A program made the translations under genes and the position numbers. A stretch of DNA of 64,000 nucleotides from Thiorhodovibrio frisius. GTDB lineage: Bacteria > Pseudomonadota > Gammaproteobacteria > Chromatiales > Chromatiaceae. The notes beneath the pieces were generated by a model that did not search any database, had not been told where the DNA came from, and saw nothing but the letters and a program-made list of their open reading frames with translations. Positions 18,607-54,844 of the stretch are shown here, in pieces. Within the stretch, counting starts at the first letter, position 1. Each line of letters opens with the position of its first letter. The stretch covers positions 1,792,501-1,856,500 of the forward strand of contig NZ_CP121471.1 of the NCBI RefSeq assembly GCF_033954835.1. The letters run 5' to 3'.

Positions 18607-19797
18607 ATGCCCATCCGGCAGGTATTCACCGAGGGTGAGAAGCCCGTCAAGGTCTGGACCGATGACATCGATGCACGCTCGCAAGCGCAGCTCATCAACA
18701 TCTCCAGGCTGCCCTTCATTCACAAGCATGTCGCTGCCATGCCCGATGTCCATCTTGGCATCGGCGCGACTATCGGCAGCGTCATTGCCACCGACAAGGC
18801 CATCATCCCGGCCGCCGTCGGGGTCGACATCGGCTGTGGTATGGCGGCTGCGCGCACCTCGCTGACGGCGGATCAGCTCGATGAGAAGGGCCTGAAGAAG
18901 CTGTTCGACCAAATCAGCCGCGACGTGCCAGTCGGGCGCGCGCAGCACAAGGATGATCGGGCGCTGACCGATGCGGCTGAGCCCTTCGCTGCGCCGCTCA
19001 AGGTCATGACCGACAAGCACCCGCAATTGCTCAAGGCCTTCGGGCGCTTCTCCAACTGGGTCAACCAGATCGGCACCCTGGGCGGTGGCAATCACTTCAT
19101 CGAAGTCTGTCTGGATGAATCCGACCGGGTGTGGGTGATGCTGCACTCCGGAAGCCGTGGCAACGCCATCGGCCATTACTTCATCGAGCTGGCCCGGCGC
19201 GACATGGAGCGCTGGATGATCCAACTCCCGGATCGGGATCTGGCCTACCTGCCTGAGGGTACCGAGCACTTCGACGACTATGTCGAGGCCGTCTCCTGGG
19301 CGCAGACCTACGCGCGCGAGAATCGCGACCAGATGATGCGCCTGGTTTTAGCTGCACTTGCGCGGCATCTGCCGGAGTTCAGCGTCACCGAGGAAGTGGT
19401 CAACTGCCATCACAACTATGTGGATCGTGAAAACCACTTCGGCGCCAATGTCTGGGTCACCCGCAAGGGTGCCATCCGCGCGCGGGAAGGTGATCTTGGC
19501 ATCATTCCCGGTAGCATGGGCGCGAAAAGCTACATCGTGCGCGGCAAGGGCAACCCCGAGAGCTTCTGCTCCTGCGCCCACGGCGCAGGGCGGCGCATGA
19601 GCCGCACCGCCGCCGAGAAGCAGTTCAAGCCAGCCGACCTGGAAGCCCAGACCCAAGGTGTGGTGTGCCGTAAGGACAAAGGGGTGCTTGATGAAATCCC
19701 CGGCGCCTACAAGGACATCGACCAGGTCATGGCCAACCAGAGTGACCTAGTCGAAGTGGTGCATACCCTCAAGCAGGTGGTGTGCGTGAAGGGATAA
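18607..19797 (+). CDS. rtcB: RNA 3'-phosphate/5'-hydroxyl ligase RtcB
   Basis: RtcB joins RNA 2',3'-cyclic-phosphate or 3'-phosphate ends to 5'-OH ends using GTP and Mn2+. The start at ATG 18607 follows a strong AGGAGG. Metal and guanylation motifs are intact: GVDIGCGM (metal cysteine), GTLGGGNHFIEVC, HSGSRGNAIG, NCHHNY, PGSMGAKSYIVRGKGN, and HGAGRRMSR with the guanylated histidine. The 396-residue length fits the family. Neither rtcA nor the rtcR activator is adjacent, so it is not in the classical rtc operon. Confidence 0.95.
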   Translation: MPIRQVFTEGEKPVKVWTDDIDARSQAQLINISRLPFIHKHVAAMPDVHLGIGATIGSVIATDKAIIPAAVGVDIGCGMAAARTSLTADQLDEKGLKKLFDQISRDVPVGRAQHKDDRALTDAAEPFAAPLKVMTDKHPQLLKAFGRFSNWVNQIGTLGGGNHFIEVCLDESDRVWVMLHSGSRGNAIGHYFIELARRDMERWMIQLPDRDLAYLPEGTEHFDDYVEAVSWAQTYARENRDQMMRLVLAALARHLPEFSVTEEVVNCHHNYVDRENHFGANVWVTRKGAIRAREGDLGIIPGSMGAKSYIVRGKGNPESFCSCAHGAGRRMSRTAAEKQFKPADLEAQTQGVVCRKDKGVLDEIPGAYKDIDQVMANQSDLVEVVHTLKQVVCVKG

Positions 19798-21789: not shown

Positions 21790-24700
21790 GTGCTCGCCAC
21801 CGTCCGTGACGCCTGCCAAATTCATCCGATGGTCCATGACTACCGGATGACCGAGGCCATCGAGAACCTGTCGGACTTGATTTCGGACGAAGGCGACGGC
21901 CGCGCGTTTTTTTCGCGTAACTATGTCACCCAGGGCATGGAAGAGCTGTTTCGCGAGGGGCTGCTGCGTCTGGCGGGCAAGTCCGACCAGGCCGCCTTCG
22001 AGCTGGCTCAGGCCATGGGTGGTGGTAAGACGCACATGATGGTCGCCCTGGGGCTGCTGGCGAAGCATCAGCATTTGCGGGGTGAGGCGTTACCGCAAGA
22101 ACTCGCCGAGCGGTTGGACTTTGGCCCGGCACGCATCGCCGCCTTCAACGGGCGCAACGATCCCGATCATTACATCTGGGGCGAGATCGCCGAGCAGCTC
22201 GGGCCGGATGGAATCGAGGCCGACCTCATCCGTCCTTATTGGGAGTCAGGTCCGCGTGGTGTCGACGAGAAGAAATGGCTCGAGATCATCGGCGAGAAAC
22301 CGACCCTGATCCTGCTCGATGAGCTTCCGCCCTACATGCTCAACGCCTCGACCCGGGTCGTGGGCAAGGGGTCCCTCGCGGACGTGGTGACTTACAGCCT
22401 GAGCAACTTGTTGGCCGCCGCCATCAAATTGCCGCGTTGCTGTGTGGTCATCGCCAACCTGTCGGGCAGCTACGAGGCGCAGACCAAGGACCTGGCGCGG
22501 GTCATGTCCAATTTGAAGCAGGAATCCAACCGCCAGGCGCAGACCATCACTCCGGTGCAGCTGGCCGGTAACGAGATTTATGAAATCCTCAAAAAGCGCC
22601 TGTTCACCGCGCTTCCGGAGGACAAAACCGTTGATTCGGTGGCGGAGACCTTCGCCGAACAGGTCAAGGCGGCCGAGGATGGCGGCTACATCGCCGCGCG
22701 CTCCATGGAGGAAGTGGCCGAGGAAGTGCGCGAGACCTATCCCTTCCATCCCTCGTTCAAAAACCTGGTCGCCTTGTTCAAGGAAAACGAAGGTTTTCGC
22801 CAGACGCGCGGACTGATGCAGTTCACCGCCAGGCTGCTGCGCAGTGTCTGGCAGCGTGATGACAACGACGTTTTCCTCATCGGAACCCAGCATCTGAATC
22901 TGAACGATGTCGAGGTGCGTGACGAAATGCAGCGCATCAATTCCGCGCTGATTCCCGCCGTGGTCAACGACATCGCTGACGATGGCAATGCGCGCGCCGA
23001 AGAGATCGATGCCGATCTCGGCGGTGACGCGGCCTCCCAGGTCGCCAAGCTGGTGCTCTCAGCCTCGCTGTCGCGCGCGGTCGGCGCTCACAGTGGGCTC
23101 ACCCAGGCCGAGATCATCGAGTACCTGGTTGCCGCGCATCGCAAGCCCGATGAATTTCTTGCCGGCCTCGATCGCCTGCGCGAGCGCGCCTGGTATCTGC
23201 ACCGTGAAAACGAGCAGTTCTATTTCAAGGAGACCGAAAACCTCGGGCGGCGCATTGAGCGCGACGCACGCCAAGTGCCGCTGCCTAAGATCGAGCAGGC
23301 GCTGATCAATCGCCTGACCGGCCTGTTCAAGACCCAGAGCAAGTCCCGCGCGGCCTACCAGGACGTGCAGATCATGCCCAAGCTGGACGACGTGAAGCTG
23401 TCTGGCAGCCGCATCCTGCTGGTGGTGCAGCCCGACGGGCGCACGCCACCGGAGGCGATTCGCACCTTCTACGAGTTCCAGCAAGAGAAGAACAACGTCC
23501 TGATCCTCTCTGGCCAAGACAGTCACCTGGCCAACGAGGTCGAAGCGCGTCTGCGAGAGCTTTACGCCATCGAGAAAATCCACGCCAACCTCAAGCCCGG
23601 CGATAGTCTCTATGACGAGGCGCGTGACAAGCTCGAGGAACTGGAGGAACGCTTCACCAAAGCCGTTTCTGGCGCCTTCAACCGCCTCTTTTTTCCGGGC
23701 GGCGATGGTGAGCTGGTCATGGCAACCATCGACAATGGCCTGAGTTTTGGCGAAGGCGACTATTCCGCCGAGACACAGATCGAGAAATTGCTTGCCAGCG
23801 CGCGCTGCGACAACAAGCTCGCGCTCGACATGACCGACGAGCTACCGAACTACTGGGCCATGGCTGAAACCTTCCTCTGGCCCGCCTCGGATCGGCGCGT
23901 CCCCTGGCGCGATCTGGTCATGCGTGCCAAGACCGACCCGACCTGGCCCTGGCTCCCAGGAGCACGCGGCCTCGAGGTTCTGCGTGATGAGGCGCTCAAG
24001 CAGGGCCGTTGGCGGCAACATGCCGATGGTCACATCGAAAAAGGACCTTTCCCGGCCGAGAAGACCTCGGTCAATGTCACCACGCTGAGCACCAACCGCG
24101 AGACCGGCGAGACCATCCTCTCCCTCACCCCGCGCAACGCCGGCGACAGCCCGCGCGTCTGTGTCCTCAAGACCAACGCCGTCAGCGAACAGGACGAGCA
24201 GGTCGACAACCTCGAGGAATATCGCACCACCGAGGCGACACTCTATTTCCTCGCCATCGACAGCAGCGGCAAGTACCAGACCGGCGAGCCGACCCGCTGG
24301 ACGGCCGATCTCACCATCCGTCATGAGCTGCACAAGGTCGCCGACGGCCGCAAGCTCGAGCTGCGCTGCACGCCCGCGGCCGAGATGCGCTACAGCCTCG
24401 ATGGCACCAATCCCAAGGAAGGCACGCTCTACAGCGAGCCCTTCGCGGTGCCGGCTTCCGCGTCGACCCTGCTGGTGGCCGCCAAGGCTGGTGAGGTGGA
24501 GAAGGTCGCGAAAATTTCCATCCCGGCCGATGGCGACGACCGGGTCAACATCGATATCACCAAGCCGGCACGCATCCCCGAGACCAAGCGCATCGCCATC
24601 GACAACACCGACAAGGTCTTCGGCATTATCAATACCTTCAGTGGTCGTCCCGACATCCATCTGCGTGGCGTGATGATCGTCATCGGCGAAGGCGAGCATG

Positions 24701-24912
24701 GGGTGCAAATCCGCTTCAACGAGCGCGAGCTGACCCTCGCCGCCATCGAAACCGCCATCCGCGGTGTGCGCGAGGCGATTGGCGACGAGCACGCGAGCGT
24801 GCAGGTCACCATTCGCGGCGGCATCAACTTCGGCGATGGCTATGCGCTGAAGCAATTCGCCGAGTTGGTTGGCGTCGGGCTGTCCGTCGGTGATGTGGAG
24901 CAAGACGCATGA
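21790..24912 (+). CDS. DUF499-family ATPase of anti-phage operon
   Basis: This 1040-residue protein starts with GTG after AAGGAG. Its N-terminal ATPase has a Walker A in LAQAMGGGKTHMMVALGLLA and a Walker B in LILLDELPPYM. The long C-terminal part contains IDNTDKVFGI and other beta-rich stretches. DUF499 proteins are large ATPases found with DUF3780, DUF1156 methylases and PLD/SNF2 helicases in predicted anti-phage loci. All of these occur downstream here. The stop overlaps the DUF3780 start by 4 bases. Confidence 0.9.
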   Translation: MLATVRDACQIHPMVHDYRMTEAIENLSDLISDEGDGRAFFSRNYVTQGMEELFREGLLRLAGKSDQAAFELAQAMGGGKTHMMVALGLLAKHQHLRGEALPQELAERLDFGPARIAAFNGRNDPDHYIWGEIAEQLGPDGIEADLIRPYWESGPRGVDEKKWLEIIGEKPTLILLDELPPYMLNASTRVVGKGSLADVVTYSLSNLLAAAIKLPRCCVVIANLSGSYEAQTKDLARVMSNLKQESNRQAQTITPVQLAGNEIYEILKKRLFTALPEDKTVDSVAETFAEQVKAAEDGGYIAARSMEEVAEEVRETYPFHPSFKNLVALFKENEGFRQTRGLMQFTARLLRSVWQRDDNDVFLIGTQHLNLNDVEVRDEMQRINSALIPAVVNDIADDGNARAEEIDADLGGDAASQVAKLVLSASLSRAVGAHSGLTQAEIIEYLVAAHRKPDEFLAGLDRLRERAWYLHRENEQFYFKETENLGRRIERDARQVPLPKIEQALINRLTGLFKTQSKSRAAYQDVQIMPKLDDVKLSGSRILLVVQPDGRTPPEAIRTFYEFQQEKNNVLILSGQDSHLANEVEARLRELYAIEKIHANLKPGDSLYDEARDKLEELEERFTKAVSGAFNRLFFPGGDGELVMATIDNGLSFGEGDYSAETQIEKLLASARCDNKLALDMTDELPNYWAMAETFLWPASDRRVPWRDLVMRAKTDPTWPWLPGARGLEVLRDEALKQGRWRQHADGHIEKGPFPAEKTSVNVTTLSTNRETGETILSLTPRNAGDSPRVCVLKTNAVSEQDEQVDNLEEYRTTEATLYFLAIDSSGKYQTGEPTRWTADLTIRHELHKVADGRKLELRCTPAAEMRYSLDGTNPKEGTLYSEPFAVPASASTLLVAAKAGEVEKVAKISIPADGDDRVNIDITKPARIPETKRIAIDNTDKVFGIINTFSGRPDIHLRGVMIVIGEGEHGVQIRFNERELTLAAIETAIRGVREAIGDEHASVQVTIRGGINFGDGYALKQFAELVGVGLSVGDVEQDA

Positions 24913-25565
24913 GCACTGCCACGATCAGCGTGCCGACCCATGCGGCGCGCGCCAATGCGGGGGCAGGTCTTGGAAAACGCTCGGCGAAGCCAGTCTATGC
25001 CCATCGCACTCTGGGCTTTGGCGTGCCGGCCACCTCCGATCCACATCACTTCGTCGTCACCATCCCCCGGGGCAACGCCGCCACGGTCCTGATCAGCGAG
25101 CACCTTGGGATGGGCGCCGGCGCCGCGCCGGAGCAGGTGCTGGACCGCGTCCTGCTGCAACGCGCGCGTTGGAGTGCGATTCGCGCCGAAGTGCAGCGCG
25201 CCTTCAATGCTCGCTTGAAAGAGCACAACCTTGCCACCGGTACCTGGAAGGTCGGTGACAATCCGGTCGATCGTCTGCTCGGCAAGGAGCTGTGCGTGCT
25301 GGCCTGGGCGATCGAACATCTGGACCCGGACAAAATTCCCGTCGCTGTGCGCAACTGGCTGGCCCTGCGCCCGGAAGAGCGCTGGTGGCTGTTTGGCATG
25401 ACGGCCATCGCCAGTGGCGGCATTCAGGACGGCGAGCAAGGCTGGCGCGTCGCACTGCGCTACGCCCTGGGCGATGTGGCGCAGAATGAACTCGTGCATT
25501 CCCGGCGCCTGGTCCCGAAAGTCGATGCCCGTCCGCAACAGACGCTGGCACTGTTCGACGATTAG
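24909..25565 (+). CDS. DUF3780-family protein of anti-phage operon
   Basis: This 218-residue protein is translationally coupled to the DUF499 ATPase (ATGA overlap). The stretch NWLALRPEERWWLFGMTAIA followed by GWRVALRYALGD is what I recognise as DUF3780, a small family known essentially only beside DUF499 and DUF1156 genes. No enzymatic motif is evident. A subunit or adaptor role in the same complex is likely but inferred. Confidence 0.8.
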   Translation: MSTATISVPTHAARANAGAGLGKRSAKPVYAHRTLGFGVPATSDPHHFVVTIPRGNAATVLISEHLGMGAGAAPEQVLDRVLLQRARWSAIRAEVQRAFNARLKEHNLATGTWKVGDNPVDRLLGKELCVLAWAIEHLDPDKIPVAVRNWLALRPEERWWLFGMTAIASGGIQDGEQGWRVALRYALGDVAQNELVHSRRLVPKVDARPQQTLALFDD

Positions 25566-25624
25566 GATCGCGAGTGATGAACTATGATTAATCATCAATC
25601 ATTTTTCCCCCAAGGAATTCGCCC

Positions 25625-25894
25625 ATGGCAAAAGCTGACACCCGCGTGCTCACCGCGCACGTTCCCCTCCCGCTGGCTGAGCGGTTAGACCAGGTGGCCG
25701 AGCGCTTGGAGCGCTCCCGTGGATGGGTCATCAAGCAAGCGCTCTCGTCTTGGATCGCCCTGCAGAAAGAGCGCGACCGATTGACGGGCGAGGCCTTGGC
25801 CGATGTTGACGCAGGCCGCGTGATCGACCATCAAGCGGTCCAAGCCTGGGCTGAGCGCCTGGACAGCGACAAGCCATTGCCCGTCCCCCATTGA
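25625..25894 (+). CDS. ribbon-helix-helix antitoxin (CopG/ParD-like), toxin partner broken
   Basis: This is an 89-residue RHH protein. TRVLTAHVPLPLAERLDQVA forms the ribbon and first helix, and RSRGWVIKQALSSWIAL the second helix. The expected ParE-type toxin follows directly but is truncated and stopped. The antitoxin is thus an orphan and could still act as a repressor of its promoter. Confidence 0.8.
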   Translation: MAKADTRVLTAHVPLPLAERLDQVAERLERSRGWVIKQALSSWIALQKERDRLTGEALADVDAGRVIDHQAVQAWAERLDSDKPLPVPH

Positions 25895-26018
25895 TCTTTT
25901 TCAGTTCGCTCCACGCGAGGTGCGGCGGCTGGTCATCGGCCAGTAAGAGCTGCGCTATGAGATTATCGGCGAGGTGATTTACCTGCTGCGGCTCTGGCAT
26001 ACCCGAGAGGATCGGTGA
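25893..26018 (+). pseudogene. ParE/RelE-type toxin remnant
   Basis: One frame reads PREVRRLVIGQ, a TAA stop (25944-25946), then ELRYEIIGEVIYLLRLWHTR and EDR, ending at 26018. This is the C-terminal half of a ParE-type toxin. A tyrosine codon has become TAA, and the N-terminal half is missing. The toxin is dead. Confidence 0.75.
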
Positions 26019-26090
26019 AGTCTGTCGTCAACTCGATGTTGGCGAAGAAACAAAAACCCCATTGAAAGCTGGTATTGACAACCCTAGGCT

Positions 26091-26111
26091 ATGCAACCAA
26101 AGTGGTTGCAT
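26091..26111. promoter_or_regulatory. perfect inverted repeat, likely VapBC operator
   Basis: ATGCAACCA and TGGTTGCAT are perfect inverted arms separated by AAG. The repeat lies 25 bp before the vapB start, and a TTGACA hexamer is present at 26075. This fits autoregulation by a FitA/VapB-type RHH antitoxin complex. Confidence 0.6.
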
Positions 26112-26136
26112 GTTACCTGAAACTGGTCTTCCGCCC

Positions 26137-26427
26137 ATGTCCTCTCTGACGCTCAAAAATCTTCCCGATCAACTGCTTGAACAACTTCGTGTACGCGCTC
26201 GGGCGCAACGACGCAGCCTGAACAGCGAAGCGATGTTGTTGCTGGAACAGGCCATGTCTAACGACTCGTGCGCATCGCCCGCGCAGGCCGGCGCGGCTGA
26301 ACAAGAAGCGCAACTCGCTGCCTGGGCACGCTTGAGCGGACGTTGGCCAGGAGGCGATGCGGCGCTGACGGCCATGGCGGCGGAAGTGGAGGCGTCGCGC
26401 ACCCTGGGCCGCGAGTTTGATCTGTGA
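26137..26427 (+). CDS. VapB/FitA-like antitoxin
   Basis: From ATG 26137 the product is 96 residues. The N terminus (MSSLTLKNLPDQLLEQLRVR then ARAQRRSLNSEAMLLLEQA) is the FitA-type ribbon-helix-helix. The C-terminal tail should occupy the PIN toxin groove. Its TGA overlaps the toxin GTG. An inverted repeat upstream is its likely operator. Confidence 0.87.
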   Translation: MSSLTLKNLPDQLLEQLRVRARAQRRSLNSEAMLLLEQAMSNDSCASPAQAGAAEQEAQLAAWARLSGRWPGGDAALTAMAAEVEASRTLGREFDL

Positions 26428-26837
26428 AGATTCTCGACACAGATGTGTGCATTGAGATCTTGCGCGGCAATCGGCAGGTGCTGCATTGGCGCCGGCACAC
26501 CCAAGCCCGCGTTGTCACCACTTGGATCACGGCCTGCGAGCTGGAGTACGGTACCGCCAAGTCGACGGCACCGGATCAAGCGCGCGCGCTGGTGGCGGAT
26601 TTCCTCAGTACGCTCGACATCCTGGGATTGGATCACGCAGCGGCGCGGCAATTTGGCCAGCACAAAGCGGCTTTAGCGCGCAGTGGCGAGATGCTGCCCG
26701 ATGCCGATCTGTTTATCGCATCGATTGCGCTGGCGCGGGGAGCTGAACTAGTCACTGGCAATCTGCGCCATTTTCGCCGTTTCCCCGGTCTGACGGTGGA
26801 AGACTGGATTCGCCAGTCGCCGCCTGAGATGAACTGA
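26424..26837 (+). CDS. VapC/FitB-like PIN-domain toxin
   Basis: This 137-residue PIN ribonuclease starts with GTG inside the antitoxin stop (4-base overlap). The catalytic acids are visible: LDTDVCIEIL, the E in TACELEYGTAKS, and LPDADLFIASIALARG. It looks intact. The module sits inside the defence operon, between the DUF3780 and DUF262 genes. Confidence 0.9.
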   Translation: MKILDTDVCIEILRGNRQVLHWRRHTQARVVTTWITACELEYGTAKSTAPDQARALVADFLSTLDILGLDHAAARQFGQHKAALARSGEMLPDADLFIASIALARGAELVTGNLRHFRRFPGLTVEDWIRQSPPEMN

Positions 26838-26879
26838 AATTGAGGGGTAGAAAGCCATGCGAAATAATACGAGGACAAC

Positions 26880-28622
26880 ATGTCCAAGTTAAACGTCGAT
26901 CAAAAAACGATTCTGGATCTTTTTTCTGATAAAAAAGCCGATTTCCTTATTCCTGACTATCAACGCCCTTATGCCTGGGATGAAGAGCAATGCCAAACGC
27001 TTTGGGATGACATGTTTGTCTTCTCATTTCCCAATGATAATTGTGATGCCTTTGATGAGAATGAAGAATATTTCCTTGGCTCAATAGTTGCGTATAAAAA
27101 CGAAAACGGAAAATCCGAGGTCATAGATGGGCAGCAACGCCTGACAACCCTGATGATTATCCTGCGAGCATTTTATGACCGTTTCGCCGATATGCAGGAT
27201 AAAAACTCAAAACTCACGCGGGAGTTGATCGAAAAGTGCATTTGGAAGACAGATGCCTTTGGTTCTCCCGATAAAACAAAGCTAAAAATTAACTCCGAAG
27301 TAGCGACGGATGCGGATAAAGAAGAGTTTCTGGACCTCCTTCGGACCGGCATCGTGCAGCCGAATAGTAAGAGCCAGTATGTCAAGAACTATCAGTTCTT
27401 CGAGAATAAAATCGAGGGTTTTTTGCAGAAATTTCCAGGTTATTTTGCTTACTTGCCGGCGCGCATCCTGAACAATTGCATTTTATTGCCGATTGAAGCG
27501 GAGTCCCAGGATACCGCACTCCGGATCTTCTCGACGCTAAACGACCGCGGTTTGCCACTCTCCGATGCGGATATTTTCAAAGCTCAGTTTTATAAGTTCT
27601 ACAGCAGTCTCGCCAAGAAAGAGGACTTCATCAGCGAGTGGAAGGAACTGGAGGAAATAACCAGTGCCATCTTCAATCCGCTCACTGGCACGCCGATGGA
27701 TGAGCTCTTCGCGCGCTATATGTATTTCCTGCGCGCCAGGGAAGGCAACAAGAGCACGACCACTGAGGCACTGCGTAAGTTCTATGAACGCAACAAATAT
27801 CAGTATTTGAAGGCGCCAACGACATTGACCGAGCTAAAAGCCTTGGCGTTGTTCTGGCAGAGTGTTATGCAACAGGACAAAACCCGGTTCTCGGAGGATG
27901 TACTTAAAAAGCTTTTTGTCCTGCATTATGCGCCAAACGGTATGTGGTTTTACCTGGCGTCGGTTTATTTCCTGCAACATCGAAATGAAGATGGGTTATT
28001 GGATGACGTTAAATTCGCCCAGTTCCTTTCTAAAATTACGGCGTTTATTTTTGCCTACGCGATCACCAATCCTGGTGTCAATGCATTGCGTACACCGGTT
28101 TATGATGAGATGGTGCGGATTGTTAATGGTGATGACGTGACCTTCGCCAAACATCGGTTTAAGCACGGCCAAGCGCGCTCATTTTTCGAGAATTTTGAGT
28201 TTACCAATCAGCGGAATGTGACGCGTTCCTTGATCACATGGTATGCCTATACTTTTCCAGAACAACCGCTGCTTGACCTCAAGGAGATTTTCCATCTGGA
28301 ACATATTTACTCAAGGAAGCGTCAAGAAATCCAAGGCGGCCTGAAGGACAAGCGCAATCTCGATTCGTTGGGGAACAAAATACTGCTTGAGGCCAGTATT
28401 AATATTAAAGCATCGGATTACCATTTTGACGATAAAAAGAAAATCTACAGCGGCGCGCAACGCCGTGGAAAAAACAAAGAGGCAAGCAAAATTCGTGAAA
28501 TCAACAATTTAATGGCTTATGACGACTTTGGGGAGCAACAGATCATTGAGCGCAACACGACGATATTGGATCGGTTTTTTGAGTATTTGAAAAGCGAGGA
28601 CCTCATCGCTGAGCAAGCATAA
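26880..28622 (+). CDS. DUF262/DUF1524 (GmrSD-like) nuclease
   Basis: This 580-residue protein has the DUF262 ParB-like NTPase/nickase motifs IPDYQRPYAW and EVIDGQQRLTTLMIIL at the N terminus. The C terminus is DUF1524-like with the HNH-type FHLEHIYSRKRQEIQ. This is the GmrSD architecture, known from type IV restriction of modified phage DNA. Here it is followed four bases later by the DUF1156 methylase. It either belongs to the same system or is a restriction module co-opted next to it. GC content is lower than that of the flanking methylase. Confidence 0.88.
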   Translation: MSKLNVDQKTILDLFSDKKADFLIPDYQRPYAWDEEQCQTLWDDMFVFSFPNDNCDAFDENEEYFLGSIVAYKNENGKSEVIDGQQRLTTLMIILRAFYDRFADMQDKNSKLTRELIEKCIWKTDAFGSPDKTKLKINSEVATDADKEEFLDLLRTGIVQPNSKSQYVKNYQFFENKIEGFLQKFPGYFAYLPARILNNCILLPIEAESQDTALRIFSTLNDRGLPLSDADIFKAQFYKFYSSLAKKEDFISEWKELEEITSAIFNPLTGTPMDELFARYMYFLRAREGNKSTTTEALRKFYERNKYQYLKAPTTLTELKALALFWQSVMQQDKTRFSEDVLKKLFVLHYAPNGMWFYLASVYFLQHRNEDGLLDDVKFAQFLSKITAFIFAYAITNPGVNALRTPVYDEMVRIVNGDDVTFAKHRFKHGQARSFFENFEFTNQRNVTRSLITWYAYTFPEQPLLDLKEIFHLEHIYSRKRQEIQGGLKDKRNLDSLGNKILLEASINIKASDYHFDDKKKIYSGAQRRGKNKEASKIREINNLMAYDDFGEQQIIERNTTILDRFFEYLKSEDLIAEQA

Positions 28623-28626
28623 TTCT

Positions 28627-31600
28627 GTGAACAGACCAGATCTAAATCCCTTCGCCCTCAAGGACGCCCCGGCCCTCATCGAAGCGGTATTTCCGGCGCA
28701 GAAGGTATCCTTCGAGGCGCAGCGCGAGCGCAAGGCCGGGGCTGGGCAGACGCTGACGGCCTTGGGTTCCTACTGGAAGGGGCGCAAGCCGCTGATCCTG
28801 GTGCGGGCGATTTTGCTCGGGAGTTTGCTGCCGCAGACCGATGATCCTGAAAAGGATCTGGAGATTTTCGAGCAGCTGATGGCGTTCGATCTTGGTGGTT
28901 TGGCACGACGCGCGCTGGAAGCCAAGGCATTCAAGCCAACGGAGATTGCACGTTCGCTGAGTCTCGATGACCCCTGGCGTTACTTCACCTACAAAATCGA
29001 AGCCACGGTGCTGTCCGCCGGCGAAGTCAGTCATTGGACCTTTCCGTTGGACCCGGACCAGGAAGGCATTCGCATCCGCTGGCGCAAGGAGTGCACCGAG
29101 GCGATGAAGCTCGCGCTCTATGGGCGGATGCTGGAACGCTTGCCCACCTACGAGGAACGCGCCGCGCGGTGCAAACGCCCGGAGGAGCTGGATCAGACCG
29201 CGCTCTATGCCCCGATCTGGCCGGCAGTGAACGCCCATCTGGGGCGCTTCGGCATTCAGGCGCAGTCGCATCAGGAAGTGGTCGAGCAGCTCGGTATTCT
29301 GCGTTTCGGCCATCGACCCAAGGTGGGCGATACCTTCTGCGGCGGCGGGTCGATTCCGTTTGAGGCCGCGCGCCTGGGCTGCGATGTCTATGCCTCGGAC
29401 CTCAATCCCATCGCCTGCATGCTGACCTGGGGGGCGCTGAACATCATCGGCGCGCCGCCGGAGAAGCGTGCCGAGATCGAGCAGGCGCAGCGTGAGGTAG
29501 CTGAGGCTGTTGATCGGGAGATCACCAAGTTAGGTATCGAGCATGATCGTCAGGGGAATCGAGCCAAGGCCTATCTCTATTGTCTGGAGACGCGCTGCCC
29601 GGAAACCGGGTGGATGGTGCCCATGGCACCAAGCTGGGTGATCTCGAAGACGCGCAATGTGATCGCCAAGCTGGTACCCGATCCGGCCAACCAGCGTTTC
29701 GAGATCGAGATTCACAGCAGTGCCTCCAGTGCCGAGATGGAAACCGCCGAGCGCGGCACGGTGCAGGATGGCCATCTGGTCTATGCGCTGGATGGCAAAA
29801 CCTATCGCACCTCGATCAAGACCCTGCGCGGCGATTATCGCGATGCCGAGGGCAATACCGCGAATCGGTTGCGGCGTTGGGAACAGCAGGATTTCAAGCC
29901 GCGTCCCGAGGATGTCTTTCGGGAACGGCTCTATTGCATCCAGTGGATGACGCGCGAGACGCTGAGTTCCCATCGCCCAGAGACTTTTTTTGCCGCCGTG
30001 ACCGAGGAGGATCGGGAGCGCGAGCGCCGGGTCGAGGCCATGGTTGCTGAGCATCTGGCACGCTGGCAGCAGGAAGGACTGGTGCCGGATATGGCGATTG
30101 AGCCGGGTGACGAGACGACGCGCTTGCATCGTGAGCGCGGGTGGATGTATTGGCAGCAGTTGTTCGATCCGCGCACGCTGCTTTCCGCCGCCCTGCTCAA
30201 TCAAGCCGCTAAACACGCGGAAGATAAATTCAATATCAATACATTACTGGATAACTCGGGACGATTGGTTCGCTGGCACTCGACGCCACCACATAAGAAT
30301 GGCGGCGGTCGTGATTTGCCTGCAAACGTATTTTCCAATCAAGCGCTGAATACATTGTTTAGTTTCGCAGCTCGTTCATGGTGGTCGGCGATGAACGTAT
30401 TGCGATACCAGTACCCAGGTGGCTCCGGTTTCACTGCCGATCATCAAGTGCTACCGCATGCCGCCGACTGCGATCTCGAAACGACGGATATCTTTGTTAC
30501 CGACCCTCCCTACGCCGACGCCGTCCATTACCACGAAATCACCGAATACTTCATCGCCTGGCTACGCAAAAACCCACCGCCACCCTTCGACCAATGGACC
30601 TGGGACTCCCGTCGCGAGCTGGCCATCAAAGGCTCCGGCGACGACTTCCGGCGCGGCATGGTCGATGCCTACCAAGCCATGACCGCGCACATGCCCGACA
30701 ACGGCATGCAGTGCGTGATGTTCACCCACCAGGACACCGGCGTCTGGTCCGACATGGTCAGCATTTTCTGGGCATCCGGTCTGCAAGTGGTCGGCGCCTG
30801 GTACATCGCCACCGAAACCACCTCCGAGCTTAAGAAGGGCGGCTATGTGCAGGGCACCGTGATCCTGATGCTGCGCAAGCGCCCGCCCGGTGACCGCCCC
30901 GGTTTCAAGCAGCGCATCCTGCCGGCGGTGAAGCGCGAGGTCGACGAGCAGATCAGGCAGATGCTGCATCTGAACAGCGAGACCGAAACCAAGATGGGCG
31001 CGCCGGTCTTCAACGACTCCGATCTGCAGATGGCCGGTTATGCCGCGGCCCTGAAAGTGCTGACTGGCAACACCCACATCGGCGGCGAGGATGTCACCAG
31101 CTTCGCGCTGCGCCCGCGCCGCAAGGATGAGACCACCGTGGTCGATGAGATCGTCGATCAGGCCGCCGAAACCGCGAATAGCCTGCTGGTCCCGGACGGC
31201 CTTGAGGCCGAGACCTGGGGCGCGATCAGCGGCATCCAGCGGTTCTATCTGCGCATGCTCGACATGGAGACCGCCGGCGCCTCCAAGCTTGATAACTACC
31301 AGAACTTCGCCAAGGCGTTTCGCGTCGACGACTATGCGGCGATCATGGCGAGCATCAAGCCCAACTCGGCTCGCTTGAAGACCGTCACCGAGTTCAAGGC
31401 CCGCGATCTGACCGACCGCACCGAGATCGGACCCACCCCGCTCGGGGCGCTGATTGTCGCCATCCAGGAGTTCCTGGCCGATAAGGAACCCGATGTGGTC
31501 ATGGCCAACCTGCGCGATGCGGTGCCGGACTATCTCAGCCTGCGCCCGAAGTTGGTGGACATGGCCGCCTTCATCGCCGCCAAGGCCCGCCAGCCCGAGA

Positions 31601-31656
31601 CCCGCCGCGCGGCCGAGGCCATCGCCAGTCGCATGCGCAACCAGCGGTTCCAATAG
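28627..31656 (+). CDS. DUF1156-family DNA methyltransferase
   Basis: This 1009-residue protein starts with GTG. The DUF1156 N-terminal region (ALIEAVFPAQKVSFEAQRER) is followed by a SAM-binding core (DTFCGGGSIPFEAARLGCDV) and the catalytic DPPY motif in VTDPPYADAVHYHEITEYF. DPPY indicates amino methylation (N6-adenine or N4-cytosine). It is the modification arm of the DUF499/DUF3780/helicase locus and would mark self DNA. The active-site and cofactor motifs look intact. Confidence 0.92.
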   Translation: MNRPDLNPFALKDAPALIEAVFPAQKVSFEAQRERKAGAGQTLTALGSYWKGRKPLILVRAILLGSLLPQTDDPEKDLEIFEQLMAFDLGGLARRALEAKAFKPTEIARSLSLDDPWRYFTYKIEATVLSAGEVSHWTFPLDPDQEGIRIRWRKECTEAMKLALYGRMLERLPTYEERAARCKRPEELDQTALYAPIWPAVNAHLGRFGIQAQSHQEVVEQLGILRFGHRPKVGDTFCGGGSIPFEAARLGCDVYASDLNPIACMLTWGALNIIGAPPEKRAEIEQAQREVAEAVDREITKLGIEHDRQGNRAKAYLYCLETRCPETGWMVPMAPSWVISKTRNVIAKLVPDPANQRFEIEIHSSASSAEMETAERGTVQDGHLVYALDGKTYRTSIKTLRGDYRDAEGNTANRLRRWEQQDFKPRPEDVFRERLYCIQWMTRETLSSHRPETFFAAVTEEDRERERRVEAMVAEHLARWQQEGLVPDMAIEPGDETTRLHRERGWMYWQQLFDPRTLLSAALLNQAAKHAEDKFNINTLLDNSGRLVRWHSTPPHKNGGGRDLPANVFSNQALNTLFSFAARSWWSAMNVLRYQYPGGSGFTADHQVLPHAADCDLETTDIFVTDPPYADAVHYHEITEYFIAWLRKNPPPPFDQWTWDSRRELAIKGSGDDFRRGMVDAYQAMTAHMPDNGMQCVMFTHQDTGVWSDMVSIFWASGLQVVGAWYIATETTSELKKGGYVQGTVILMLRKRPPGDRPGFKQRILPAVKREVDEQIRQMLHLNSETETKMGAPVFNDSDLQMAGYAAALKVLTGNTHIGGEDVTSFALRPRRKDETTVVDEIVDQAAETANSLLVPDGLEAETWGAISGIQRFYLRMLDMETAGASKLDNYQNFAKAFRVDDYAAIMASIKPNSARLKTVTEFKARDLTDRTEIGPTPLGALIVAIQEFLADKEPDVVMANLRDAVPDYLSLRPKLVDMAAFIAAKARQPETRRAAEAIASRMRNQRFQ

Positions 31657-31671
31657 ATCGGTTACACACCC

Positions 31672-31953
31672 ATGATCAAAAGTTTCGCCGACACCGAGAC
31701 GGAGCGCTTTTTCCAAACCGGAAAATCGCGTCGCCTACCGCCGGATATTTTGAAACGTGCCACCATGCGATTGATCCAACTCCAAGCAGCCACGCAAATC
31801 GGCGACCTTCGCTTTCCGCCATCCAACCGTTTGGAAACTTTAGGGCACGACAGGGCCGGACAATGGAGCATTCGCATTAACGACCAATGGCGGATTTGTT
31901 TTCGGTTCGAGAATGGTGATGCGTTTGATGTGGAAGTCGTCGACTACCATTGA
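31672..31953 (+). CDS. higB: HigB-type mRNA interferase toxin
   Basis: This 93-residue protein starts MIKSFADTETERFFQTGKSR and ends WSIRINDQWRICFRFENGDA followed by VEVVDYH, a standard HigB/RelE-fold toxin. HigB cuts mRNA on the ribosome. Order is toxin then antitoxin, as is usual for hig. It lies 15 bases after the methylase gene, within the defence operon. Confidence 0.93.
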   Translation: MIKSFADTETERFFQTGKSRRLPPDILKRATMRLIQLQAATQIGDLRFPPSNRLETLGHDRAGQWSIRINDQWRICFRFENGDAFDVEVVDYH

Positions 31954-31964
31954 GGTTAAGCGAA

Positions 31965-32276
31965 ATGATTACAAACGGTCTTCCTGCTGTTCACCCAGGT
32001 GCATTTCTCGACGAACTCCTGCATGAACTGGAGCTATCCCAGGCTGAGTTTGCCCAAGCCATCGAAGTCACACCGGATCGGTTGGCGGCCGTGGTCAGCG
32101 AAGAACAACCGATCACGGCCGACCTGGCTTTGTTGTTCGCCCAGGCATTCGATCAGTCGCCGCATTATTGGCTGAACCTTCAGGCTGAATACGATCTGGC
32201 AACTGCGTCGACCCATCTTGGCGCTCAACTCAAGCGCGTGCACAGAGTGGCAAACGATGAAAGTCGTCTACCGTGA
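31965..32276 (+). CDS. higA: HigA-type antitoxin
   Basis: I start it at ATG 31965 (MITNGLPAVHPGAFLDELLH) with GAGG upstream. A TTG 15 bases earlier is less likely. The 103-residue protein has an XRE helix-turn-helix (LSQAEFAQAIEVTPDRLAAV) and the HigA tail AQAFDQSPHYWLNLQAEYDL. It neutralises HigB and represses the pair. Confidence 0.92.
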   Translation: MITNGLPAVHPGAFLDELLHELELSQAEFAQAIEVTPDRLAAVVSEEQPITADLALLFAQAFDQSPHYWLNLQAEYDLATASTHLGAQLKRVHRVANDESRLP

Positions 32277-32391
32277 GAACGATGACCGAGCGGAGAAGCC
32301 CAAGAATCTCTCCTATTACGCTTTCGCGACCAAGCAGGCCGTTATCGTCAAGACAGCCATGATTAACTGGCCTGAGCGGTGTGCCACATGA
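32257..32391 (+). CDS. 44-residue ORF overlapping higA and a DUF2283 gene
   Basis: The frame starts inside the end of higA (20-base overlap) and its stop overlaps the next ATG (ATGA), so its translation could be coupled to both. The start MKVVYREND resembles the last strand of DUF4258-type toxins, the usual partner of DUF2283 proteins. The rest is unlike that family. It is most likely a toxin remnant left at a recombination junction. Confidence 0.4.
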   Translation: MKVVYRENDDRAEKPKNLSYYAFATKQAVIVKTAMINWPERCAT

Positions 32392-32588
32392 AGATTACCT
32401 ACTATGAAGAAGACGACATCCTGTTTATCGAGATGTCAAAGAGTCCCGTTGTGCGGGACGAGTCGGTGAGCTGGAATGTCAATATCGGCTATACCGCCGA
32501 AGGCATCGGTGAGATCACCATCTTGGATGCGCAAAAGCTCGGCGTCTATCCGCTGCAGATCGAGCGGGTCGTCTCCGAGGCTGCATGA
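32388..32588 (+). CDS. DUF2283 protein, antitoxin-like
   Basis: From ATG 32388 the product is 66 residues. ITYYEEDDILFIEMSKSPVV and the ending ITILDAQKL are characteristic of DUF2283. These small proteins usually follow a DUF4258-type toxin gene and are considered antitoxins. Here a complete toxin is missing. Confidence 0.8.
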   Translation: MKITYYEEDDILFIEMSKSPVVRDESVSWNVNIGYTAEGIGEITILDAQKLGVYPLQIERVVSEAA

Positions 32589-32642
32589 CGGATGCGCCAG
32601 GGCATGATTGGATAAATCACCCAGTTTCTGCGCGCAGACGCG

Positions 32643-35390
32643 ATGACCATCCAACGCTTCTCCTCCCGCACCCACCGTCTCGACCAGAGCTTTCTGGCCG
32701 AGCAGCTCCAAGGCGCACGCCGCTATCTGCGCATCGCCGGTTACTTCACCAGCTCCCTGTTCGAGATCGCCCACGAGTGGCTGGAGCCGATCCCGGAGGT
32801 GCGCATCGTCTGCAACGTCGATCTGGCGCCCGAGGATTTGAAGGTTGCCCAGCTGCGCGAGATGCGCATGCTCGGGCGCTGGAACGAGCGCTCCATCGAG
32901 GCGGAATCCCTGCTCAATCGCCCGCGCTACCAGCGGCTGCATGAATTTCTGGCCAAACGCGGCGAGGCAATCCGCGTCGCGCCGGACAGCGTCTGCGGCT
33001 TCGTCCATGGCAAAGCCGGGGTGATCGAGCGCGCCGACGGGACCAAGGTCGGCTTCATCGGCTCGATGAACGAGACCCGACACGGCTGGCAACGACACTA
33101 CGAGATTCTGTGGCAGGACGACGCGCCCGAAGGCATCGCCTGGATCGAGGCCGAGTTCGAGTTTCTCTGGAATGCCGCGCGCCCCTTACCGGAAGCGGTG
33201 TGCCGCGAGGTGGCCCGGCGCGGCCGGCGGGTCGAGGTAGCACTGCCGGAGCTCGACAGCGAGGACACCCTCACCCCCGCGGCGCTGATCGAATCCCCGC
33301 TCTACCGCGAGGGCATGACCTTGCAGCCCTGGCAGCAGGGGTTCGTCGCAGAGTGCCTGCGCCATCACAAGGACCACGGCCAGGTGCGCCTGCTGCTGGC
33401 CGACGAAGTGGGCTTGGGCAAGACGCTGTCACTGGGTACCGCGGCACTGACACTCTGCCTGCTGGATGAAAAGGCCGCGGGCAACGGGAACAAGCGGCGC
33501 AAGCCGATCGTGATCTTTGCCCCGGCGACCCTGTGCGAGCAGTGGCAAACCGAACTGCTCGACAAGCTCGGCATCCCAGCGGCGCGCTGGGACTCGCGGC
33601 GCAAGGTGTGGCTCGATCCCGAGGAGCGCGCGATCTCTCCAAGCGGACCCGAGCAGATCGCCCGCAGCCCCTTGCGCATGGGCATCGTCTCCACCGGACT
33701 GATGGTGCAGCCCTCGCGCGAGAAAGAAGTGCTGCTGGGGATCAGCTTCACGCTGGTGATTCTTGATGAGGCGCACAAGGCGCGCTCGCGCCACGGCATC
33801 GGCGCCAAGGCCGATGAGCCGAATGCCTTGCTAGCCTTCATGCTCGCCATCGCCGATCGCGCCGAGCATGTCCTGCTGGGGACCGCCACCCCGATCCAGA
33901 CCACGCCCGAGGACCTGTGGGATTTGATGCGCGTGCTGCACCGGGGCAGCACGGGCTTCGTGCTCGGCAATGATCTCGCCCCTTGGCATCGCCCGCGCCA
34001 GGTGCTGCCGATCCTCTGTGGCGAGGAGCAGGTGACCACGATCGAGGCCGGCTGGCGGTTGCTGCGCTCGCCGTTGCCCACCATGACTTCCAGCAACGAG
34101 CCCAACGCGCGGCGGCTGTTTCGCAATCTGCGCGAAGAGCTTGACCTGGAACCACGGGCGCACCTGGCCGGCGCCTTGAGCGATCTGCCGTTCGATGTGC
34201 GCGACGATCTGGAAACCGAGCTCGAGCGTGTCATCGATGGCGCGAGCTTCTTTCAGCGCGAGAATCCGTTCGTGCGCCATGTGGTGCTGCGCAAGCGCAC
34301 CACTCTGGAAGAGCGCGGGCTGTTGGACCGTATCGCCGTGAATATCCATCCCGATCAGGGGTTGGTGCAGTCGCCGCACCGGTTCAATGCGCTGTTTCAG
34401 GATTTGGCACTGCGTACCACGCCGGATTTTGATCATGCTTATGAGGAAGCACTCGCCTTCGGTCAGGTCCTGGCAAAGCGCGGCAAGGGTGGCGGTTTCA
34501 TGCACAGTCTCATGCAGCAGCGGGTCTGCTCGAGCGTGGTGGCCGGCATCAATACTGCCCAGACGCTGCTCGCCGGCCGCGAGGTGCAGGAAGAAACCGA
34601 AGAGGCCGATGTGAAGCTAGCCATCCAAAACGATGATGAGCGCGCGGCCTTGGTCAGCTTGATTTCCGCACTGGAGGCCATGGATGAAGACCCGAAACTG
34701 GCCGCTGTGCGCTTCTATCTCCAAGACGAAGGCTGGCTGATGTTGGGCTGCATCATCTTCAGCCAGTATTACGACACCGCGCGCTGGGTAGCGGATGCGT
34801 TGGCCGCCGATTTTCCCCAAGAGACGATCGGTCTCTATGCCGGCGCTGACCGCAGCCGACTTTACCGCGACGGCCAAGCCGTCGGCATCGTCCGCGAAGA
34901 GCTCAAGCGTATGGTCGCCGATCGCGAAGTCCGCCTGATGGTGGCCACCGATGCCGCTTGTGAAGGGTTGAACCTGCAAACCCTCGGTACTCTGATCAAC
35001 ATCGACCTGCCCTGGAACCCGACCCGCCTGGAGCAGCGCATCGGTCGCATCAAGCGCTTTGGCCAGGCCCGCACGGCGGTCGATATGCTCAATCTCGTTC
35101 ACCAAGGCACTGTCGACGAGAAGGTCTACGCGCGGCTGTCCGAGCGCATGCGTAACCGCCATGACCTTTTCGGGGGACTGCCCGATACCATCCGCGACGA
35201 CTGGATCGAGGACCTCGAAACACTGGGCGAGAAAATGGACCAGTACATCGAGGAGCGCCGCAAGGCGACAGGGTTTGATCTGCGCTACAACGACAGCCTG
35301 CAGCCGAGCGCGGACGCCTGGCGCGATTGCGCCACCGTGCTGGCCCGGCGGGATGTCGAGAATCTGATGCGGCAGGGATGGAGTGGGTGA
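32643..35390 (+). CDS. PLD-nuclease/SNF2-type helicase of anti-phage operon
   Basis: This 915-residue protein combines an N-terminal phospholipase-D-type nuclease (FVHGKAGVIERADG and VGFIGSMNET, ~110-150) with a superfamily 2 SNF2-like helicase. The helicase shows LLADEVGLGKTLSLG (Walker A), LVILDEAHKARS (DEAH), GTATPIQTTPEDLWDL and the C-terminal LEQRIGRIKRFGQ. It would translocate on DNA and cleave, and so acts as the effector of the DUF499/DUF1156 locus. It is the last gene of the operon. Confidence 0.92.
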   Translation: MTIQRFSSRTHRLDQSFLAEQLQGARRYLRIAGYFTSSLFEIAHEWLEPIPEVRIVCNVDLAPEDLKVAQLREMRMLGRWNERSIEAESLLNRPRYQRLHEFLAKRGEAIRVAPDSVCGFVHGKAGVIERADGTKVGFIGSMNETRHGWQRHYEILWQDDAPEGIAWIEAEFEFLWNAARPLPEAVCREVARRGRRVEVALPELDSEDTLTPAALIESPLYREGMTLQPWQQGFVAECLRHHKDHGQVRLLLADEVGLGKTLSLGTAALTLCLLDEKAAGNGNKRRKPIVIFAPATLCEQWQTELLDKLGIPAARWDSRRKVWLDPEERAISPSGPEQIARSPLRMGIVSTGLMVQPSREKEVLLGISFTLVILDEAHKARSRHGIGAKADEPNALLAFMLAIADRAEHVLLGTATPIQTTPEDLWDLMRVLHRGSTGFVLGNDLAPWHRPRQVLPILCGEEQVTTIEAGWRLLRSPLPTMTSSNEPNARRLFRNLREELDLEPRAHLAGALSDLPFDVRDDLETELERVIDGASFFQRENPFVRHVVLRKRTTLEERGLLDRIAVNIHPDQGLVQSPHRFNALFQDLALRTTPDFDHAYEEALAFGQVLAKRGKGGGFMHSLMQQRVCSSVVAGINTAQTLLAGREVQEETEEADVKLAIQNDDERAALVSLISALEAMDEDPKLAAVRFYLQDEGWLMLGCIIFSQYYDTARWVADALAADFPQETIGLYAGADRSRLYRDGQAVGIVREELKRMVADREVRLMVATDAACEGLNLQTLGTLINIDLPWNPTRLEQRIGRIKRFGQARTAVDMLNLVHQGTVDEKVYARLSERMRNRHDLFGGLPDTIRDDWIEDLETLGEKMDQYIEERRKATGFDLRYNDSLQPSADAWRDCATVLARRDVENLMRQGWSG

Positions 35391-35536
35391 GCTTTCCTTT
35401 CACTCCCCGCAGGCGGCTTGCGTCAACTGAGAGTCAACTGGTCGGGGCAGCGCTACTCAATTTTGCTGCGTCTGAGCCAACTTTGACTAGCTGGCTCCTA
35501 TCAAGTTGGCGCTGCGTGGGAACTTATGGGCCGCTC

Positions 35537-35964
35537 TCGGCCACTATGTGTAGCTACAAACTATGTGACGTTTGGTGAATTTTTTCCCAGCCATTGCGCG
35601 GTTGCTGGCTTTGAGGCGCGGCGTGCGACAGGGGAACTTCACATAGTCTGTCAGTTTTCTGAAGTGTTGTGAGTAACTTCAACTTCAGTCAGGCGCGCAC
35701 TTCAACGACATTGCACTCTACCTCGGGCATGAAACACCGACCACGACGCATCAGTATGTTGAGGCGAATCTGGCCATGAAGGAACAGGCGCTCGCGCGCC
35801 TGCAAGAGCCAACCGACGTCGCTCCCCGTTTCCAGCCAACTGACACGCTAGGCCAGTTCCTGGAGAGCCTGTAACTATGTGAAGAATGGGCTGGCTCCAA
35901 CGCAGGCCAGCCTAGCAATAAACATCCGAACTTCACATAGTTTGTAGCTCCACATAGTGGCCGA
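35537..35964. mobile_element. small inverted-repeat element with integrase remnant
   Basis: Two 36-bp inverted repeats (35537-35572 and 35929-35964) match at 34 positions. Each contains two copies of CACATAGT. More copies of the ACTTCACATAGT motif occur inside, near 35637 and (inverted) 35872. The 428-bp interval includes the C-terminal end of a tyrosine recombinase. It looks like the deletion derivative of a mobile element, MITE-like in size. Confidence 0.55.
35704..35874 (+). pseudogene. tyrosine recombinase C-terminal fragment
   Basis: The frame encodes NDIALYLGHETPTTTHQYVE then ANLAMKEQALARLQ. This is the final part of a tyrosine recombinase with the LGH motif and the catalytic tyrosine in HQYVE. 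It ends FLESL-stop as in recombinases that accompany IS91-type elements. Everything upstream is missing. It may be the opposite end of the same recombinase family whose N-terminal piece lies at 4471. Confidence 0.65.
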
Positions 35965-36206
35965 TACCGGCCTTCACGGATCACAAGCCACAGCTACGGG
36001 CAATCCGGTAGGGTCAGCTCGGACTGATCTGAGAAATTCCTGGGAAAAAATGTCAGCGACAACAGCAACCCGATAATGGACCGATGTGGCGGTGCTGAGG
36101 AGGTTAGAGACCGAGGGGATTGGGCGAGTATCGGTCGAGGGATATTTGCTGGAGGGGGCTAAAAGCGGTGCTGGGGTGATACAGAACATAGCACCAGCTT
36201 AGCACC

Positions 36207-36251: not shown

Positions 36252-36298
36252 TTTGGCTCCCCGACGTGGACTCGAACCACGGACCCACTGATTAACAG
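36252..36298. repeat. left attachment site (displaced tRNA-Asn 3' end)
   Basis: These 47 bases are identical to 54798-54844, covering the CCA end, T arm and 3' anticodon arm of tRNA-Asn. Only the 3' portion of the tRNA is present, so this copy is the target half displaced when the island inserted. Confidence 0.9.
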
Positions 36299-53455: not shown

Positions 53456-53845
53456 ATGACTGACAAGCTTCTCTTGACCTATGAACAAGCATCCGAGCGC
53501 TTGAGCATCAGTAAGCGCTCGCTTCAACGGCTGATTGAACAAAAGAAGATTGAGCGCGTTTACCCTGTGAGGCGTGCACCTCGTATTACTGCAAGGTCAA
53601 TACAAGGGTACATTGATAGCTTGTGCGAATTAGGCTATACTGTCAAGGAGGGATCGGCTATGCGTAATCCGAATACAGGAGATACGCCATGGCCAAACGA
53701 AACGACAAAGACGGCCTGCACCAAAGGAAAGACTCGCCATACTGGTGGGCGAGCTACAAAGACTCAGGCGGGAAGAGAGTTAGATGCTCGACTGGGACCC
53801 AGGACAGGGAAGAAGCCGCAGCGCTCCTTGCGAAATGGAAGTTAG
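53456..53845 (+). CDS. excisionase-like helix-turn-helix protein, paralogue of 43036
   Basis: This 129-residue protein has the HTH TYEQASERLSISKRSLQRLI. It resembles the first excisionase-like protein in its first ~60 residues, including RAPRI against RTPRI. Its 3' end overlaps the integrase gene by 157 bases in another frame. The overlapped tail is basic (TKTAC...TGKKPQRSLRNGS) and may be dispensable. It is the likely excisionase of the island. Confidence 0.75.
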   Translation: MTDKLLLTYEQASERLSISKRSLQRLIEQKKIERVYPVRRAPRITARSIQGYIDSLCELGYTVKEGSAMRNPNTGDTPWPNETTKTACTKGKTRHTGGRATKTQAGRELDARLGPRTGKKPQRSLRNGS

Positions 53846-54797: not shown

Positions 54798-54844
54798 TTT
54801 GGCTCCCCGACGTGGACTCGAACCACGGACCCACTGATTAACAG
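54798..54844. repeat. right attachment site within tRNA-Asn
   Basis: This 47-bp segment is identical to 36252-36298. It forms the 3' part of the intact tRNA-Asn, from the CCA end through the anticodon 3' side. The tRNA stays complete after integration. Confidence 0.9.

Follow-up and report, generated by a model that had tools for sequence, protein, structure and literature searches.

We conclude with good confidence that the locus described here is a complete Type-2 BREX-related (BR), RM-like operon carrying passenger genes in two internal slots that flank its methylase gene, and that the GmrSD-type nuclease in one of these slots is most likely independent of the operon. The locus lies in a stretch of 64,000 nucleotides (hereafter, the window) from Thiorhodovibrio frisius (NZ_CP121471.1, positions 1,792,501 to 1,856,500), and coordinates are those of the window unless preceded by one of our locus labels (L046 and the like). 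The ORF list of the window contains five large ORFs, all on the plus strand, at the coordinates given by the initial annotation (Table 1). Two gaps, at 25566-26879 and 31657-32642, hold six small genes that the initial annotation had left out. Slot B is the interval between the DUF3780 and DUF1156 genes, and slot C is that between the DUF1156 and helicase genes.

Table 1. Genes of the operon and its two slots, in window coordinates
Feature	Coordinates	Strand	Length and main family match
DUF499 AAA+ ATPase (core; HmaC-like)	21790..24912	+	1040 aa; NF042962 equivalog 1456 bits, cut-off 1200
DUF3780 protein (core; Type-2 BR marker)	24909..25565	+	218 aa; NF042961 276 bits, cut-off 200
RHH (CopG-type) antitoxin-like, without evident partner (slot B)	25625..25894	+	Pfam RHH_1 2.4e-9
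VapB/FitA-like antitoxin (slot B)	26137..26427 (listed ORF from 26062; ATG at 26137 used)	+	FitA-like_RHH 2.4e-10
VapC-like PIN toxin (slot B)	26424..26837	+	Pfam PIN 4.4e-11
GmrSD-type (DUF262 + GmrSD_C) nuclease (slot B passenger)	26880..28622	+	580 aa; GmrSD_N 1.2e-43, GmrSD_C 1.4e-8 (Pfam)
DUF1156 amino-methyltransferase (core)	28627..31656	+	1009 aa; NF042963 1366 bits, cut-off 1000
HigB-like toxin (slot C)	31672..31953	+	Pfam HigB-like_toxin 2.3e-20
HigA-like HTH protein (slot C)	31950..32276	+	HTH_3 5.8e-5, 23.5 bits, cut-off 23
DUF2283 protein (slot C)	32379..32588	+	Pfam DUF2283 1.8e-11
PLD (HKD)-SNF2 helicase (core effector)	32643..35390	+	915 aa; NF042964 1186 bits, cut-off 1100

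Core operon and genomic setting

All four core proteins score above curated NCBIfam equivalog cut-offs made for anti-phage loci (NF042962, DUF499_antiphage; NF042961, DUF3780_antiphage; NF042963, DUF1156_antiphage; NF042964, phospholipD_antiphage), and they also match the corresponding PADLOC models (PDLC02189-02193). The best PADLOC match of the fifth large protein, the GmrSD-type nuclease, is HEC-06 (8.3e-42, 141.5 bits). In the DUF499 protein, the PDLC02192 DUF499 match is accompanied by a HmaC match (8e-49) and by a Pfam Fn3_assoc match at residues 856-898. Pfam DUF3780 is matched at 8e-77, and the DUF1156 protein, whose gene starts with GTG, matches PDLC02189 with 1406 bits and Pfam DUF1156 at 4.5e-21. 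In the helicase (PDLC02193, 1307 bits), a PLDc_2 domain at residues 20-176 is followed by SNF2-rel_dom and Helicase_C (Pfam), so an N-terminal HKD/PLD nuclease is present.

The translations contain the strings GGGKT and LILLDE (DUF499), DTFCGGGS and DPPY (DUF1156), HGKAGVIER, GSMN, DEVGLGKT, DEAH and QRIGRIKR (helicase), and YQRPYAW, DGQQR and HLEH (GmrSD), all of which we take to be catalytic motifs. Among full-length relatives, DPPY occurs in 82 of 82 DUF1156 rows and a GGGKT-type Walker A in 67 of 67 DUF499 rows; narrower patterns were found in varying proportions (G[ST]xN 69/69, DEAH 60/69, LILLDE 40/67, F[CA]GxG[ST] 35/82, HxKxG 15/69). The order and strand of the core genes are identical in all 85 sequences in which all four were found, the window included.

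This arrangement corresponds to a published family, as DUF499-centred BREX-related systems, among which Hma is counted, have been defined in PMC12839542 (NAR 2026, gkag035). Type-2 BR is recognised there by a DUF3780 gene that stands alone (1090 taxa, 98%) and by a helicase that begins with an HKD nuclease, and 53% of its DUF499 proteins have FnIII-like domains. The window shares the four core proteins, the stand-alone DUF3780, the HKD-front helicase and an Fn3-type match in DUF499, and differs from the described systems in the extra genes of its two internal gaps (PMC12839542). Thus, the initial annotation was right to describe five large same-direction genes with motifs in place, and its view that the operon is of an anti-phage type and encodes an amino-methylase together with a nuclease-helicase is borne out by four equivalog-level matches and by the fit to this family. 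The function of the family is itself graded as "likely" in PMC12839542, and the phage experiment cited there concerns the helicase HmaA.

No TUDOR family was among the Pfam matches at 0.001, the assignment made in the paper being structural. A structure model of DUF3780 (mean pLDDT 83.8, from 53 rows) returned 146 PDB matches at E<=10, of which none reached E<=0.001, and we set it aside as a guide to function; this result agrees with the account in PMC12839542, where no definitive homologues were found for DUF3780.

As for the genomic setting, a DUF3780 match was present in one of the three genomes of the genus, namely the window's own, and the two congeners were without it. The operon travels, as indicated by DUF1156 relatives on 20 of 72,556 plasmid records at 1e-60. 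None of 50,697 phage records matched DUF1156 at 1e-20; it was found in 23 viral-contig loci, the weakest of which, L150 (24% identity), may not be of Type-2 BR type. An 18.6-kb element with a 47-base direct repeat (36252-36298 and 54798-54844), overlapping tRNA-Asn, adjoins the operon. Its G+C content is 0.39 over 37-51 kb, and by reading only we take two of its ORFs to be integrase-like (53689-54738) and UvrD-like (40479-42272). The operon ends at 35390, outside the direct repeats, and was rejected as a part of this element. Comparison with the congeners defined no insertion boundary either, the flanks being repeat-rich and offering no clean junction.

Two repeated segments nearby are worth recording in their own right. 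The segment 18105-19799 contains an RNA-ligase gene of the RtcB family (18520-19797), and further copies of the segment, at 85-86% identity, are found once elsewhere in the same genome, three times in one congener and once in the other. Just behind the helicase gene, a short repeated element with inverted ends (35529-35975), which looks like an IS remnant or a MITE, has copies elsewhere in the same genome and in one congener.

Variable cargo on both sides of the methylase gene

The window was compared with 80 of 445 confirmed genome relatives of DUF1156, 23 viral-contig loci and 2 plasmid loci, with flanks of up to 10 kb. In genome loci where both flanking genes were found, one of 71 gaps separating DUF499 from DUF3780 was longer than 600 bp, compared with 41 of 73 for slot B and 21 of 73 for slot C. 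Fisher's test of the latter two against the first gave 1e-14 and 2e-6, respectively, nominal values given that the rows are related. The corresponding counts for viral loci were 0/17, 4/17 and 2/22.

Both slots are variable in content. Over 75 tree rows, slot B was empty in 31 and held DarTG in 15, toxin-antitoxin genes in 10, Schlafen-like genes in 7, Uma2 in 5, an ABC-type ATPase in 2, unassigned cargo in 4 (L046, L059, L076, L094) and GmrSD with VapBC in one, the window; this coding is our own, "DarTG" including L093 with DarG-like matches only and "Schlafen" including L088 (short matches) and L065 (mixed). Slot C was empty in 52 of the 75 rows, the rest being distributed among a ParA-like set (8), PIN (3), HigBA (2), AAA with subtilase (2) and other genes (8). 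On the DUF1156 tree (82 of 83 rows, with L121 left out), the minimum number of changes was 20 for slot B and 19 for slot C, as raw counts without a shuffle control.

Among chosen cargo proteins, Pfam recognised DarT and macro domains, Schlafen AlbA_2 with an ATPase domain, Uma2, AAA_21, AIPR, AAA with subtilase, a ParA-like ATPase, DUF559, PDDEXK_3 and XisHI, together with the toxin-antitoxin families PIN, DUF3368/UPF0175, YafQ, ParE, PemK and DUF433/DUF5615. PADLOC assigned some proteins to DarT, DarG, PDC-M28, Ppl, AbiU, HEC-01A and IetS. DarT and DarG lie together in slot B of 14 genome loci (L067, L068, L073, L078, L081, L082, L085, L089, L095, L101, L102, L107, L114, L116) and DarTG is found there in three viral contigs too (L128, L133, L140); none is present in the window. 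The main text of PMC12839542 contains no occurrence of "DarT", "macro domain", "ADP-ribos" or "Uma2". A set of three genes (about 142, 442 and 475 aa) occupies slot C in L056, L059, L065, L067, L068, L073, L078 and L123, two of them corresponding to PADLOC PDC-M28B and C in L065. We also observed a 246-aa slot-B protein common to L057 (L057:3665-4405) and L065 (L065:8267-9007), the L057 copy being without a Pfam or PADLOC match.

Loci with alignable cores may have slots B that cannot be aligned, as in L086/L095 (core DNA identity 76-83%), L116/L123 (75-80%) and the window/L050 (81-88% over the aligned parts), and an alignable slot B is common to L095/L114 and to L082/L078. Cargo matches lie on the operon's strand in 71 of 71 cases in slot B and 44 of 45 in slot C, counts that cover matches to chosen representatives only and come from ORF picking that favoured the plus strand. 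The rule is not absolute, as L109 and L110 have minus-strand ORFs in this slot.

In the window, slot C repeats the order HigB-like, HTH, DUF2283 seen in L050 (Lamprobacter), to which it is 82% identical over 804 bp; DUF2283 is found in slot C of both L049 and L050. Such identity suggests that HigBA-DUF2283 probably arrived with the operon. Slot B is 70% identical over 471 bp to that of L049 (Thiocystis), which is consistent with a VapBC common to both. Behind the RHH gene, at 25890-26020, a seeming ParE-like remnant without one open frame was noticed by eye.

It might be asked whether the slot genes are simply neutral insertions tolerated at the junctions, so that GmrSD, VapBC and HigBA add nothing to the operon's defence. 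The frequency of empty slots is in line with this idea, as are an IS1 transposase gene in the viral contig L129 (slot B) and a minus-strand pentapeptide-repeat gene in slot C of L110. However, the cargo representatives belong mostly to toxin-antitoxin or defence families and their frames are open, by a raw tally over chosen representatives, and the close likeness of slot C between the window and L050 implies that it has been kept. We consider neutrality improbable on balance.

It is also tempting to speculate that the two slots recruit toxin-antitoxin or self-contained defence modules under the control of one operon, in which case a failing or inhibited core (e.g., through loss of the methylase transcript) would free a toxin or a backup nuclease. 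The modules in question would be DarTG, VapBC, HigBA, PemK, YafQ, Schlafen-like, IetS-like, Ppl, PDC-M28 and GmrSD, and the window, having modules on both sides of the methylase gene, would represent one state of a combinatorial array. We offer this idea tentatively and hold it less likely than not.

The GmrSD-type nuclease of slot B

The 580-aa protein carries both GmrSD domains in one chain and had no NCBIfam family match at 0.001. Its gene ends 4 bases ahead of the GTG of DUF1156 on the same strand, and has a G+C content of 0.449, compared with 0.616-0.659 in the flanking core genes. One of four promoter-like sites lies just before it (26840-26868), in a scan that was at chance level overall (4 promoter-like sites vs. 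5.0 expected; 15 terminator-like vs. 13.8).

The initial annotation treated GmrSD as a member of one five-gene system. Put explicitly, such a system would be integrated and GmrSD would be a working part that reads the methylation state set by DUF1156, an idea to which its position directly before the methylase gene lends some appeal. We looked for GmrSD in the 105 other loci (80 genome, 23 viral, 2 plasmid) by phmmer at E<=1e-3 plus one motif pair, over six-frame ORFs of at least 100 aa. None of the 92 loci that hold the DUF3780-DUF1156 interval (73 genome, 17 viral, 2 plasmid) had GmrSD in it, and as far as these loci go, DUF262 beside DUF1156 is not conserved in relatives. Thus, comparison of gene order upheld the core but not the fifth gene, and the five-gene system is disfavoured on comparative grounds.

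Outside the interval, L099 and L133 have a GmrSD-like gene immediately behind the helicase gene, and L132 has one 0.3 kb upstream of DUF499, which speaks in favour of a working connection. In L071, a GmrSD-like 715-aa protein (L071:1006-3150), the end of which matches RAMA below the threshold, lies about 3 kb upstream of the Type-2 BR operon. Pfam confirms the genes of L099, L132 and L071. GmrSD is thus loosely associated with the operon ends, more than would be called accident.

Relatives of the window's GmrSD itself were matched at 1e-20 in 5 of 96 genomes of the same family, the window's own included. The other four are 72-76% identical to it, and core genes were absent near them in the stretches fetched (8 to 19 kb). 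Their Pfam neighbours are purK-like (L156), endonuclease III-like and nadC-type QRPTase-like, one on each side (L157), adenylosuccinate synthetase (L158) and RimP (L159); GmrSD lies within 0.4 kb of a contig end in L158 and L159 and about 2 kb from one in L156, so that little of one side is seen there. In three of the four, only housekeeping-like genes were among the neighbours read or searched, which argues against the integrated system. The exception is L156 (L156:9460-11939), where an MT-A70 methylase-like gene (1.1e-30) stands 113 bp behind GmrSD and is followed by a weakly HEPN-like gene. This may be a GmrSD-methylase pairing outside BR operons, and it counts in favour of the integrated system; an adenine methylase neighbour has thus been seen for this subfamily in two settings. 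The four relatives are AT-rich too (G+C 0.33-0.44 vs. 0.51-0.61 in their surroundings). We read GmrSD as a gene that moves independently and sometimes lands beside methylase genes.

The best precedent is BrxU. In the pEFER BREX island, its gene sits between brxC and pglX; deletions distinguished two classes of phage, and BrxU was sufficient by itself (PMC8565348). Like the window's GmrSD, it is a single-chain GmrSD-family enzyme whose gene immediately precedes that of the methylase in a BREX-type operon (PMC8565348). Its place before pglX might be taken as support for integration, but its sufficiency alone points the other way. The hosts differ, being Type 1 BREX for BrxU and BR for the window. 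A phmmer search of the PDB set at E<=0.01 with the window's GmrSD found only the DUF262 protein 9jfl (1.4e-9) and SspE chains, with no match to BrxU and hence no sign of the BrxU subfamily; any substrate preference ascribed to GmrSD is for this reason borrowed.

Another point of comparison is HEC-06, one of the Hma-embedded candidates that showed antiviral activity (PMC12988326, citing the bioRxiv preprint of Payne et al., 2024). The match to it is far from identity, and HEC-06 is named for embedding in Hma, whereas the window's GmrSD sits in a Type-2 BR operon. GmrSD-family enzymes are mentioned once in the main text of PMC12839542, as auxiliary nucleases of BREX and BR generally.

Given also the low G+C content of the GmrSD gene and the nuclease that the core already has, we regard an integrated five-gene system as unlikely. 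By analogy with BrxU in BREX, GmrSD is most likely a captured passenger that would act as an independent type IV enzyme. The GmrSD-like genes at operon edges and the MT-A70 neighbour of one relative lower our confidence in this passenger reading.

Proposed mode of action and significance

Gene content, family membership, the lack of GmrSD in slot B of the relatives compared and the variability of the slots are what we show; we infer every biochemical step of the Type-2 BR model as it would apply here. Drawing on family knowledge and on PMC12839542, we suppose that DUF1156 would methylate adenines of host DNA, that DUF499 and DUF3780 would sense unmethylated or otherwise foreign DNA and license attack, and that the PLD-helicase would move on the sensed DNA and cut it. 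Ahead of DUF1156, slot B holds the RHH antitoxin-like gene together with GmrSD and a VapBC-type pair; behind it, slot C holds DUF2283 and a HigBA-type pair. GmrSD would most likely act alone, like BrxU, by cutting base-modified phage DNA that escapes the core, without reading the DUF1156 mark. The toxin-antitoxin pairs are probably addiction or abortive-infection modules.

A defence pair within a restriction operon has a counterpart in DarTG2, which lies between hsdS and hsdR of an E. coli type I restriction-modification operon (PMC12255303). The Type-2 BR relatives resemble this case, DarTG being their commonest slot-B cargo; the host operon is a different one, and the window itself is without DarTG.

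Overall, both this kind of system and passengers like those that it carries have been described before, and the locus illustrates clearly how operons of this type acquire and exchange additional weapons. As GmrSD is most likely a passenger, the five genes should not be annotated as a fixed system. We believe that the slot pattern, which we do not claim as unpublished, is the most useful by-product of this work: Type-2 BR operons gain and swap modules, most often DarTG, at the two junctions that flank the methylase gene, and this pattern can be tested. If the slots do couple toxins to the state of the core, the operon would follow a guard design.
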